Source of the DNA: Helicobacteraceae bacterium
Lineage (GTDB): Bacteria; Campylobacterota; Campylobacteria; Campylobacterales; Helicobacteraceae
DNA: 64,000 nt
Reading direction: 5' to 3'
Assembly (NCBI GenBank): GCA_017508245.1
Contig: JAFVZI010000002.1
Coordinates: forward strand, 1 to 64,000
Shown in pieces: positions 22,654-56,050 of the stretch. The translations under genes were made by a program, and so were the position numbers. The notes under the pieces are model-generated. The model was not told where the DNA came from, did no database searches, and saw only the letters and a program-made list of their open reading frames with translations. The first letter of the stretch is position 1. The number at the start of each line of letters is the position of its first letter.

Positions 22654-23655
22654 ATGATACCCATTGGGATTATTGGCGTAAGCGGATACACAGGGTTAGA
22701 ACTAATCAAGCTTATAGCTAATCATCAATCATTTGAAATTAAGTATTTGGCAAACACAACTGGCGATACAACCCTACACAAAATACACAAAAGCCTTGTT
22801 TCGGTAATAGAAGATATCAAAGTAGAAAATATTAATCTAGATTCTATCAAACAATGCAAATTAGTTTTTCTTGCACTTCCACACGAAGAATCAATGAAAA
22901 TCACCCCAAAGATTCTGGATTCTGGAGTGATAGTTGTTGATTTATCAGCAGATTACAGACTAAATGAAGAAAATTTCAATACAACATATACAAAACATCA
23001 AGATGTAAAAAACCTAAAAATAGCACAATATGGGCTAATTGAATGGAATAGAAAAAATATCAAAAATGCAAGTCTAATAGCAAATCCGGGCTGCTATCCT
23101 ACAGCCAGCCTACTTGGAATCTTGCCATTTGTAGAATTTATAGATGGAAGTGTGTTTATTGACGCAAAAAGCGGCGTGAGTGGAGCTGGAAAAAAACATA
23201 GTGATAATACGCATTATCCAAATATAAATGATAATATGTTTAGTTATCAACCGCTAAATCATAGGCATCAAATAGAAATTGCTCAAAAATGTAAAGATTT
23301 TACAAATAAAGATATAAAAATAAATTTTATACCACATTTAAGTCCATTTACGCGCGGTATGTTGGTATCTATATTTGCAAAATTAAAATATGAAATAAAT
23401 CCACTAGAAGTCCTAAAAGATAAATATAAAGATGAAAAATTTATAAGAATTAGAGAATCCCCTGTTGATGTGAAAAGTGTTTGTGGAACGCATTTTTGCG
23501 ATATATTTGTAAAAGTAAATGGAAATGATTTGTATATAAACACAAGTATTGACAATCTATTGAAAGGAGCAAGCTCGCAAGCTCTAGCTTGTGCGAATCT
23601 TGCACTTGGATTGGATGAAAATATAGCATTACCAAAGGTCGCTTATGTCCCTTGA
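22654..23655 (+). CDS. argC: N-acetyl-gamma-glutamyl-phosphate reductase
   Basis: Third step of arginine biosynthesis: NADPH-dependent reduction of N-acetylglutamyl phosphate. The dinucleotide-binding start IPIGIIGVSGYTGLELIKL and the active-site ANPGCYPTASLLG with the catalytic Cys are diagnostic. Length 333 is normal. H. pylori lacks this pathway, so the gene marks a more prototrophic Helicobacter. Its end overlaps the phosphoesterase start by 11 nt. A Shine-Dalgarno (AGGGG) sits within the inverted repeat upstream. Confidence 0.96.
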   Translation: MIPIGIIGVSGYTGLELIKLIANHQSFEIKYLANTTGDTTLHKIHKSLVSVIEDIKVENINLDSIKQCKLVFLALPHEESMKITPKILDSGVIVVDLSADYRLNEENFNTTYTKHQDVKNLKIAQYGLIEWNRKNIKNASLIANPGCYPTASLLGILPFVEFIDGSVFIDAKSGVSGAGKKHSDNTHYPNINDNMFSYQPLNHRHQIEIAQKCKDFTNKDIKINFIPHLSPFTRGMLVSIFAKLKYEINPLEVLKDKYKDEKFIRIRESPVDVKSVCGTHFCDIFVKVNGNDLYINTSIDNLLKGASSQALACANLALGLDENIALPKVAYVP

Positions 23656-49418: not shown

Positions 49419-49901
49419 TCAAATATTAATCCCGATTTGTGCAAAAAGTGCGACAAATACCAATGTAGTGATACCAGCGAAGAATCCTGCCAACACATCA
49501 TCACCAACAACACCCAATCCGCCTTTTGTATGTTTATCTACCTTGCCTATAATAGAAGGTTTCCATATATCATATAATCTAAAAAATACAAATGAAAATA
49601 TGATTGAAACGATACTAAATCCAGAAATACTCATAGCAATCCAGATTCCAATTAGCTCATCAATTACGATATATTTCGCATCGTGGATTCCAATATTGTT
49701 TTCATAAATATCAATTTCTTTGATTGCAATAATGCCGCATAGGGCTGCCAATGCAAATAAAGTAGAGGGAGAAAAATATAATATCGGAATCCCAACAATA
49801 AGCCCAAACAAACTACCCCAAGTGCCGGATGCTTTTTTGATATACCCTATATTAAAAAGTGTTAAAAACAATTCTCTTTTATTCAAAAAATATCCTATCA
49901 T
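49419..49901 (-). CDS. pgpA: Phosphatidylglycerophosphatase A
   Basis: Membrane phosphatase making phosphatidylglycerol. The motifs SGTWGSLFGL (N-terminal), IVIDELIGIWIA and GGLGVVGDDVLAGFFAG match PgpA, with metal-binding acids in DE and DD. Length 160 is standard, with about four helices. It shares 4 nt with the regulator gene upstream (ATGA-type overlap at 49898-49901) and converges directly on lnt with no gap. Confidence 0.92.
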   Translation of the reverse strand: MIGYFLNKRELFLTLFNIGYIKKASGTWGSLFGLIVGIPILYFSPSTLFALAALCGIIAIKEIDIYENNIGIHDAKYIVIDELIGIWIAMSISGFSIVSIIFSFVFFRLYDIWKPSIIGKVDKHTKGGLGVVGDDVLAGFFAGITTLVFVALFAQIGINI

Positions 49902-50815
49902 ACTCGACTTTGTTTTACACTTTTTCTTTGCTTAACTATCCCATATCTTTTGCGTTTCTCCCATAAACTTTTGCGACTAATTCCTAGCTCTTTTGCAAGC
50001 TCAATATCAGAATATAATCCTTCATATTTTGCAATCATCATCTTCTCATAATCTCTTATTGGCATTATTTCACCACCCATATCCATACAACTTTTAGCTA
50101 CAGAAATATCTACGATATTGCTAAATGTAATTTCTTCCTGAGAAACAAATGAAAACAATACATTTTGTTTATGGAGCTTGTCTATAAGCTCATTTCTTTC
50201 ACTTTTTTTAATCTGCTCTAGCCCTGTTAGATACACGATTTCATTAACGTTATTATTGATATTTAAAATACTCTTCCAATCAACTTCCTTTAGAGATAAA
50301 AAATTGAAATGTATATTTTTTAGTCTTGCATATCTCATAGCATATATATCCGCACTTCTTTGAGAACTACTTCTTATGATAAATGGCAAGTTATAAGTGA
50401 ATGGAAATGGAGTATTTAGTATTCCCTCAACAAATTCAAAATAATTCTTATAAAAAACAACTTCTTTTTGAAGTCTATCAAACTCTCTATAATGCTCTAT
50501 TTTTCTAATCAATTCATCTACAATTATAGGCTTAATGACATAATCGTGCATTCCAGCCTTAAACATTTTGGTAACAGTATCATCATTTATATATTTAATC
50601 ATTACTATAATGATGCTTTCTTTAAAATGTTTGATTGCATTAGTGCAAGAACCTTGACAAAGATCATAAGACATCAAAACAATATCAAATGCATTATTTT
50701 TATCAAGTTTAAGATTTAAATCTTTTGAAATAACACATTCATAGCCTCTATCTTCTAGCTTATTGCTAATACTTTGTGCCAGATAGGTATCATTTTCTAT
50801 AATAAGTATTTTCAT
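49898..50815 (-). CDS. Atypical orphan response regulator (HP1021-like)
   Basis: A two-domain regulator: receiver-like fold at residues 1-120 and a Fis-type helix-turn-helix at the C-terminus (IELAKELGISRKSLWEKRKR). The acid pocket ENDT (7-10) remains, but the acceptor position carries Ser49 (DIVLMSYDL) in place of Asp, so normal phosphorylation is unlikely. The neighbouring cysteines in DLCQGSC could serve redox sensing. In H. pylori the orthologue HP1021 sits next to ispDF (HP1020), binds oriC and responds to redox state. The same neighbourhood here supports orthology. Confidence 0.88.
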   Translation of the reverse strand: MKILIIENDTYLAQSISNKLEDRGYECVISKDLNLKLDKNNAFDIVLMSYDLCQGSCTNAIKHFKESIIIVMIKYINDDTVTKMFKAGMHDYVIKPIIVDELIRKIEHYREFDRLQKEVVFYKNYFEFVEGILNTPFPFTYNLPFIIRSSSQRSADIYAMRYARLKNIHFNFLSLKEVDWKSILNINNNVNEIVYLTGLEQIKKSERNELIDKLHKQNVLFSFVSQEEITFSNIVDISVAKSCMDMGGEIMPIRDYEKMMIAKYEGLYSDIELAKELGISRKSLWEKRKRYGIVKQRKSVKQSRV

Positions 50816-54552: not shown

Positions 54553-55164
54553 TTAAAATTTACAATCATAAGTTAGTGCTACTGCGTAGTTTTGTTTGAT
54601 TTTATATTCGATACCATCTACCTTTTTTGTCGCTTGTGTTATTGGAAAAGAGACAACCAAACCTAATCTACTATTATCATAACTTGTTCCTATACCTACT
54701 CTAGCGTCACTATAAAATGCTGAATGACTTGTATTTATATTACCAATAAGCGAGTTATCATTTAGTATAGCAAAACCAAGACCAACCCCTACAATCGCAT
54801 CAAATGAATAATTTTGTGTTTTATGAAAATCAAATATTATATCTGCATTTGCCATAATAGGCATAAAATGTGACGAACCATTGCCTTGCAATTCCACAAG
54901 AGAACCAGAAGAATTCACATCAACAAAAGAATCTTTAAAGCTTATATACCCTTGAAGCCCTATTAAATCACTAAAAAAATATCTATATCCAGCCTTAAAT
55001 CCATACATTGGAGCAGATAGCTCTACCTTGACACTATTTCCATTTGCACTTGCTGCTATACTAACTTCACTTATACCAATCTCAGCCCCTAAGAAAAATC
55101 CATCTTTATCATTTGCCATACTATAACCAAATAATAAACATAAACAAAGTAGAATCTTTTTCAT
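54553..55164 (-). CDS. Outer-membrane beta-barrel protein, paralogue A
   Basis: A 203-residue exported protein: signal peptide (1-17, ending GYSMA), then mature start NDKDGFFLGAEIGISEV and alternating strands ending VALTYDCKF, an aromatic barrel C-terminus. It resembles the gene at 55288-55863 in its N-terminal NDKDGxxLGxE, strand layout and C-terminus, so the two are tandem paralogues. A C9 tract lies 43 nt upstream of the ATG, in the promoter region, suggesting on/off or graded expression. No function is recognised beyond a Helicobacter small-barrel protein. Confidence 0.82.
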   Translation of the reverse strand: MKKILLCLCLLFGYSMANDKDGFFLGAEIGISEVSIAASANGNSVKVELSAPMYGFKAGYRYFFSDLIGLQGYISFKDSFVDVNSSGSLVELQGNGSSHFMPIMANADIIFDFHKTQNYSFDAIVGVGLGFAILNDNSLIGNINTSHSAFYSDARVGIGTSYDNSRLGLVVSFPITQATKKVDGIEYKIKQNYAVALTYDCKF

Positions 55165-55206
55165 ATAAACCCCTTTTTTGAATTGAAATCTAAGAAGCAG
55201 ATTCTA

Positions 55207-55215
55207 CCCCCCCCC
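55207..55215 (-). promoter_or_regulatory. C9/G9 homopolymer upstream of barrel paralogue A
   Basis: Nine cytosines (guanines on the coding strand), 43 nt before the ATG at 55164. On the minus strand the tract is directly followed by TAGAAT, a possible -10, so tract length would set promoter spacing. The same arrangement precedes the paralogue. Slipped-strand length changes are expected in such tracts. Confidence 0.75.
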
Positions 55216-55287
55216 ATTAAAGAAAGCTTAAAATTTAAGGGATGGTTAAAATATACGAAGATTCTAGGAGTTACTCCTAGAACAAAT

Positions 55288-55863
55288 TTAGAATTTATAA
55301 TCATATGCCAATGAAATAGTATAATTAGTCCTTGACTTCCAATCTCCTTCTTTTGTTGGAATTACAGGAAATGAAGCAATAAGACTTATAGAGTTATATT
55401 TATAGCTTGTTTTTAATCCTAATTTTAAATCTGTGTATAGGCCAGACATACTACGACTAACACCATCTGATTTAGCTTTAATATTAGCACCACCTATTCC
55501 AATACCTGCAAATCCACCCATAGAAAGAGATTTATCATTATAAAAATCAAGCAAAAAGTCTATATTTGCTGCAAACGACATAATATGCTCGGATTTCTTG
55601 TAACCATCACCTTTGGTTGATAGAAATAAATCCTTAAAATTAGCATATGTATAAATACCAAATAACTTACCAAAATATTTTACATATCCTAATCTAAAAC
55701 CATACAAAGGAAAACTGACTGTATTATTACTTGTATAACCATCAACTGATTCTGTAATTTTCGCCTCTCCTAATCCAAGCTCAAATCCTAAAGATATACC
55801 ATCTTTATCGTTTGCTTGAGATATCCCCATAAGTAAAATAAAAATAAATAAAATCCTTTTCAT
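55288..55863 (-). CDS. Outer-membrane beta-barrel protein, paralogue B
   Basis: A 191-residue exported barrel protein with signal peptide (1-17, ending GISQA), mature start NDKDGISLGFELGLGEAKI, and C-terminus ISLAYDYKF. The layout, NDKDG start and spacing of strands match the gene downstream at 54553, indicating duplication followed by divergence in the loop regions. A C9 tract 40 nt upstream of the ATG makes it a phase-variation candidate. Ligand or adhesion role unknown. Confidence 0.82.
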   Translation of the reverse strand: MKRILFIFILLMGISQANDKDGISLGFELGLGEAKITESVDGYTSNNTVSFPLYGFRLGYVKYFGKLFGIYTYANFKDLFLSTKGDGYKKSEHIMSFAANIDFLLDFYNDKSLSMGGFAGIGIGGANIKAKSDGVSRSMSGLYTDLKLGLKTSYKYNSISLIASFPVIPTKEGDWKSRTNYTISLAYDYKF

Positions 55864-55902
55864 TCGACCTCATTTAATTTAAAATTTAAAAAATGGATTC
55901 TA

Positions 55903-55911
55903 CCCCCCCCC
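55903..55911 (-). promoter_or_regulatory. C9/G9 homopolymer upstream of barrel paralogue B
   Basis: Nine cytosines 40 nt before the ATG at 55863, in the same context, GATTCTA-C9-ATTAAA, as the tract of paralogue A. On the coding strand the shared order is TAAGC, about 8-10 nt, TAAT, G9, TAGAAT. Confidence 0.75.
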
Positions 55912-56050
55912 ATTAAAAGTGAGCTTAAAAAATATAAAGTTATTAAATCTAATTACAAGTTGAATATATTTTGCAGTCTTAATTTGATACTAATAAACTA
56001 TAATACAACCCTTGCTATAACAAACCTAGTAATATTAATTAAGGCATAAA

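Follow-up and report, generated by a model that had tools for sequence, protein, structure and literature searches.

The window analyzed here, a 64,000-nucleotide stretch of DNA from a Helicobacteraceae bacterium, carries two minus-strand genes, called barrel 1 and barrel 2 below (Table 1), whose products align over their full length with 37% identity (E 7e-37). In a Pfam profile search, both ORFs resembled the outer-membrane barrels of PF13505 and PF01856; relative to the 21-bit cutoff of HP_OMP (PF01856), barrel 2 scored above it, at 25.9 bits, and barrel 1 just below it, at 20.8 bits. The AlphaFold model of barrel 1 (pLDDT 76.9) consists of a signal helix followed by an eight-stranded barrel, and its best structural matches include barrels of the Ail, OmpX, OmpA, and NspA type. 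These results agree with the initial annotation, which had described two paralogous outer-membrane barrels, and the modeled product, a signal peptide followed by an eight-stranded barrel, is a predicted surface structure of the kind looked for in transcriptional phase variation. A search of NCBIfam returned no family for the barrels, and barrel 1, used as a protein query against GTDB contigs, retrieved no relatives; relatives were instead gathered by a genus-level search and a DNA scan. The source assembly is fragmented (836 kb in 14 contigs, 57% complete), and the homopolymer lengths given for this genome are those of the assembly consensus. Between the two genes lies a hairpin that has no clear T run after it and may form the 3' terminus of the barrel 2 mRNA. 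Because a terminator scan between barrel 2 and barrel 1 found no canonical terminator, it is possible that barrel 1 is also reached by read-through from barrel 2. Elsewhere in the window, beside ispDF, is a regulator-like ORF of 305 aa (49898 to 50815) that we take to be reminiscent of HP1021.

Table 1. Features of the barrel locus, in window coordinates
Feature	Coordinates	Strand	Details
Barrel 1	54553..55164	minus	203 aa; signal peptide and 8-stranded outer-membrane beta-barrel; C-terminal F; first ATG base at 55164
TAGAAT, predicted -10 of barrel 1	55201..55206	minus	36 nt from ATG
G9 tract, promoter spacer of barrel 1	55207..55215	minus	cassette kept in 5/5 genus genomes
TTTAAG-CTTTC-TTTAAT, upstream element of barrel 1	55216..55232	minus	columns conserved in 8 modules
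Hairpin between the barrel genes	55261..55283	minus	10 bp; -12.6 kcal/mol, z -3.85
Barrel 2	55288..55863	minus	191 aa; barrel 1 paralogue; first ATG base at 55863
TAGAAT, predicted -10 of barrel 2	55897..55902	minus	33 nt from ATG
G9 tract, promoter spacer of barrel 2	55903..55911	minus	
TTTAAG-CTCACT-TTTAAT, upstream element of barrel 2	55912..55929	minus	spacer of 6 bp, not 5

Two C9 tracts had been noted ahead of these genes, each in the forward-strand context GATTCTA-C9-ATTAAA and at 43 nt (barrel 1) and 40 nt (barrel 2) from the ATG, and their positions, context, and distances were all recovered from the sequence. They are the only runs of at least 8 G or C in the whole window; the tract pattern was observed 4 times there, compared to 0.05 expected, and none of 100 shuffles reached 4. 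On the coding strand, the sequence reads TTTAAG-CTTTC-TTTAAT-G9-TAGAAT before barrel 1 and TTTAAG-CTCACT-TTTAAT-G9-TAGAAT before barrel 2, with the G run directly abutting TAGAAT in both. Within approximately 2 Mb of genus sequence, TAGAAT and TATAAT were enriched at 30 to 50 nt upstream of ATGs (55 and 65, compared to approximately 10 to 30 in other bins), and both TAGAAT hexamers of the window sit inside this zone. Since TAGAAT is found 33 to 36 nt from the ATG, where these hexamers are enriched, the poly-G run is read as a promoter spacer, and a homopolymer (taken as 7 to 8 residues or more) thus separates the upstream element from the -10 before both barrels. TAGAATC/GATTCTA occurs 125 times in the window, compared to 14.6 expected, and because of this approximately 8.5-fold excess of TAGAATC the hexamer by itself is weak evidence. 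A scan for E. coli-type promoters was discarded as a detector, as it left the cassette unrecognized and found fewer sites than in shuffles.

The case for a putative promoter is instead made by the conservation of the whole cassette, TTTAAG-N5/6-TTTAAT-G9-TAGAAT (32 bp). The pattern TTAAT-Gn-TAGAAT was found in all five genus genomes, and a reversed-pattern control gave 0. The genes behind the genus cassette encode barrels, a LicD-like protein of 325 aa, and membrane proteins of 84 and 90 aa. Among eight nonredundant modules, conservation drops sharply beyond TTTAAG...TAGAAT and the flanks share little, and therefore the cassette itself is the conserved unit. G tracts of at least 8 abutted TA[ATG]AAT in 15 of 70 cases, compared to 0.33 expected at the actual background frequency of that hexamer (P 8e-21; approximately 2 Mb of genus sequence). 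Although the excess of TAGAATC in the window would suit an origin by chance, with TAGAATC as a common word and the G runs as neutral remnants, we rejected this explanation as exceedingly improbable on the basis of this enriched pairing and the retention of the cassette across five species, before unrelated genes, and in another genus. The placement of the tract in a promoter spacer with TAGAAT as the -10, also proposed in the initial annotation, was upheld by cassette conservation and by the hexamer enrichment at that distance.

A wider pattern search of the genus also found interrupted and tract-less versions of the cassette. In one genus genome, the promoter of rpmB (L28) reads TTAAGC-N20-TAGAAT, 33 nt from the ATG and with no G tract; the gap corresponding to N20 is 19 in barrel 1 and 20 in barrel 2. 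The tract could be imagined to lie in the 5' leader, with the TTTAAT upstream of it itself serving as the -10, where a RepG-like small RNA would recognize it or where it would influence translation, by analogy with H. pylori tlpB; in H. pylori, RepG reads variable G repeats in leaders (PMC8295292). This is very unlikely, given that the TAGAAT following the tract does not vary and falls in the zone of -10 hexamer enrichment, that the rpmB promoter keeps the spacing without the Gs, and that an Rfam search of the window gave 0 matches. The source genome has 28 G/C tracts of 8 to 11, twenty of them of length 9, and those other than the two promoter tracts are mostly in or near ORFs; the two promoter tracts are therefore members of a genome-wide G/C tract set of the Campylobacter kind. 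One short contig, which looks like a surface-sugar region, has five C8-C9 tracts within 5.7 kb, mostly in or beside ORFs (G000:C3:1-5742).

When 84,980 species were scanned for the strict cassette, it was recovered from this genus, from Campylobacter sp. RGIG8913 (7 loci), and from five scattered others; the congeners among the matches were two uncultured Helicobacteraceae MAGs and Helicobacter sp. 16-1353. RGIG8913 is a MAG from water deer omasum in which most of the 7 loci are visibly ahead of barrel ORFs; apart from one G8 and one G10, almost every cassette in it has G9. Near-identical TTTAAGC...TAGAAT cassettes number at least nine in RGIG8913, and most of them precede barrel-type genes. 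Runs of G8 or longer abutted TA[GT]AAT in 50 of 121 Helicobacteraceae genomes; the reversed control gave far fewer matches. TTTAAG lay 6 to 14 nt upstream in 22 of 23 barrel-family genes behind tracts, compared to 20 of the 99 other tract promoters (P 1e-11), and when this genus and the Campylobacter MAG were left out, it was present in 10 of 11 barrel promoters versus 11 of 78 (P 7e-7); the barrel promoters of other genera often have the first half-site of the upstream element only. Tracts before barrel-family genes range overall from G8 to G19, and the barrel-family proteins of three further genera are behind G9 to G19. Tract-length differences between related genomes or paralogues were found in other genera of the family, where matching promoters of species or paralogues carry G15/G18, G12/G15, G14/G17, G10/G13/G14, and G11/G14. 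In one genus of the family (g2), TTGACA-G14-TAGAAT and TTGACA-G17-TAGAAT precede a shared 137-aa gene, one in each of two species, and therefore the G run makes up the whole promoter spacer in that pair.

Promoter tract lengths within the genus are more uniform. A thiC-mrp / barrel / hydrolase / hisIE locus is common to the source genome, which has both barrels, and two congeners, one with barrel 1 only and the other with barrel 2 only. The barrel 1 orthologue in the second genome is 90% identical and the barrel 2 orthologue at the same locus of the third genome 74 to 77% identical, and each is also behind G9, making both orthologous tract pairs G9/G9. Exactly G9 was found in 14 of 16 genus promoter tracts and none was longer than 9; one G8 and one G8A were seen at other loci than the orthologous pairs. 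G9 also accounts for 36 of the 56 other tracts of the genus genomes and is the modal tract length in Campylobacter, at 53% (PMC6321876). Promoter-tract variants were fewer than free slippage predicts, whether compared to this 53% (P 0.004) or to the other genus tracts (P 0.04), and the excess of G9 in promoter tracts over other genus tracts was not significant in a Fisher test (P 0.12). Several interrupted or tract-less versions retain the 9-nt gap (AGGGTGGGG twice, GATATGAGA, and G8A). One AGGGTGGGG tract belongs to a third barrel copy, at another site of the source genome, that has lost its 5' half (G000:C8 near 22983-23296), and the other precedes a frameshifted barrel copy in a congener (G002:C2:56557); homopolymer loss and gene loss coincide in these two copies.

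The predominance of G9, both in the genus promoter tracts and in nearly all of the Campylobacter MAG cassettes, and the 9-nt gap kept in interrupted and tract-less versions would fit a real promoter in which G9 is a spacer of set length, held by selection or low slippage, and no working switch exists, but same-family barrel promoters in other genera span G9 to G19 with orthologues and paralogues differing, the G9 mode is common to other tracts, as slippage dynamics alone would give, and G9 is within the mutable range in Campylobacter, where such tracts mutate at approximately 1e-3 per division (PMC8224891). We consider a spacer of this fixed kind unlikely. The earlier proposal of a phase-variable pair was partly supported: tract lengths differ among promoters of this family in other genera, but the genus orthologues of the two window tracts are G9. 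Independent control of the two barrels, also proposed, is plausible in view of a separate cassette for each of them and the strong hairpin in the intergenic region.

Taken together, slippable-spacer promoters, which would make both barrels phase variable, are the best explanation of these results and a probable one. This reading draws on the directly observed anatomy, cassette conservation, -10 position, barrel-family association, and length differences in other genera. Each barrel gene would have its own sigma-80-type promoter, in which TTTAAG-N5/6-TTTAAT lies upstream of a spacer of G9 and a -10 of TAGAAT. Left untranscribed, the G run would determine by its length how far, and in what register, the -10 stands from the upstream element and whatever binds there. 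Replication slippage that adds or removes Gs would then turn transcription of that barrel up or down, leading to cells that differ in their surface barrels. By analogy with known systems, the outcome is probably random switching, either on/off or between strong and weak expression. Because nearly every such tract is exactly G9, switching in this genus is something that we infer, and in this species changes in length would be expected to occur and to alter expression. The clustering of promoter tracts at 9, the lack of any longer than 9, and the 9-nt gap kept without a tract together suggest that G9 is the favored, and probably the expressed, state. Epsilonproteobacterial promoters depend weakly on -35 spacing, and the effect of tract length may therefore be mild.

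The upstream element itself resembles a known regulatory site. In H. pylori, HP1043/HsrA target promoters have TTTAAG-N5-TTTAAG just upstream of the -10 and no -35 box (PMC5253667, PMC8345958), and the consensus of the HsrA box is ttTAAG-N5-tTTAAg (PMC8345958). The TTTAAG-N5-TTTAAT of barrel 1 and most modules matches this box, whereas the element of barrel 2 has N6. An HsrA orthologue is encoded (G000:C12:135345; 225 aa; PDB 2hqr, E 3.5e-90). The candidate box directly precedes the -10, but the gap is 9 nt here versus approximately 13 nt at Php1227, the latter derived from a box at -42 to -26 and an assumed -10 at -12 to -7; the promoter region of HsrA itself offered no clean box for calibrating the gap. 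The described consensus of the H. pylori target promoters has no poly-G, whereas the window promoters have G9. A genome-wide count of the HsrA-type motif gave 27 for N5 versus 7 to 26 at other spacings, with no clear enrichment, and a general role of the HsrA box in the promoters of the genus was not supported. We hypothesize from the motif that HsrA, an essential regulator, binds the upstream element, although the 6-bp spacer of barrel 2, the shorter gap, the lack of genome-wide enrichment, and the single half-site in many barrel promoters of other genera speak against it; the element may also simply be a TTTAAG-type signal in place of a -35 box. More tentatively, and with considerable doubt, there may be a Campylobacterales dual-control class in which HsrA acts on TTTAAG-N5-TTTAAT and a slippable G run sets the register to the -10 on small barrels.

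Phase-variable genes of Helicobacter and Campylobacter are known mostly as coding-frame switches. In Neisseria meningitidis, the porA promoter, which drives an outer-membrane protein gene, has a poly-G run between its -35 and -10; its other promoter elements and its protein family differ from those described here, PorA being a large porin and not a small eight-stranded barrel. The poly-G length of Treponema pallidum tp0126 sets the -35/-10 distance, and the tprL tract is mostly G9, with a range of 7 to 11 within a population (PMC7864442). The promoters of tp0126 (an OmpW homologue), tprL, and tprE/G/J are like those in the window in placing poly-G before putative outer-membrane proteins, but in Treponema, an unrelated organism, the effect was shown by experiment, whereas the window promoters are read from sequence alone. 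We know of no TTTAAG-type upstream element in these Treponema promoters. In fim2 and fim3 of Bordetella pertussis, a homopolymer is located between the BvgA site and the -10, and a change of one base switches expression (PMC10172299); the fim promoters use a poly-C of approximately 11 to 16 and phosphorylated BvgA, whereas those in the window have G9 and a candidate activator, HsrA, that is a guess. Helicobacter canadensis, of the same bacterial family as the source, has 5 promoter tracts among 29 (four of G13 to G16 and one A12, before vacA-like, protease, and hypothetical genes), all of its coding-region-associated tracts are variable in reads, and the composite cassette is not described in the part of its report consulted (PMC2823697).

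Promoter-homopolymer switching thus has precedents among surface proteins of Neisseria, Treponema, and Bordetella, and what is new is a composite cassette that is conserved and associated with a barrel family across Campylobacterales. If the dual-control class exists, it would combine a global physiological signal with a random switch on the small-barrel family and would span several Helicobacteraceae genera and at least one Campylobacter. Through one compact promoter cassette, many small outer-membrane barrels, together with a small number of further surface-type genes, would be linked to the length of a poly-G run. Since the cassette can be found by sequence alone, it provides a way to list transcriptionally phase-variable genes, and searches for it would reach genomes where coding-tract searches miss such genes.
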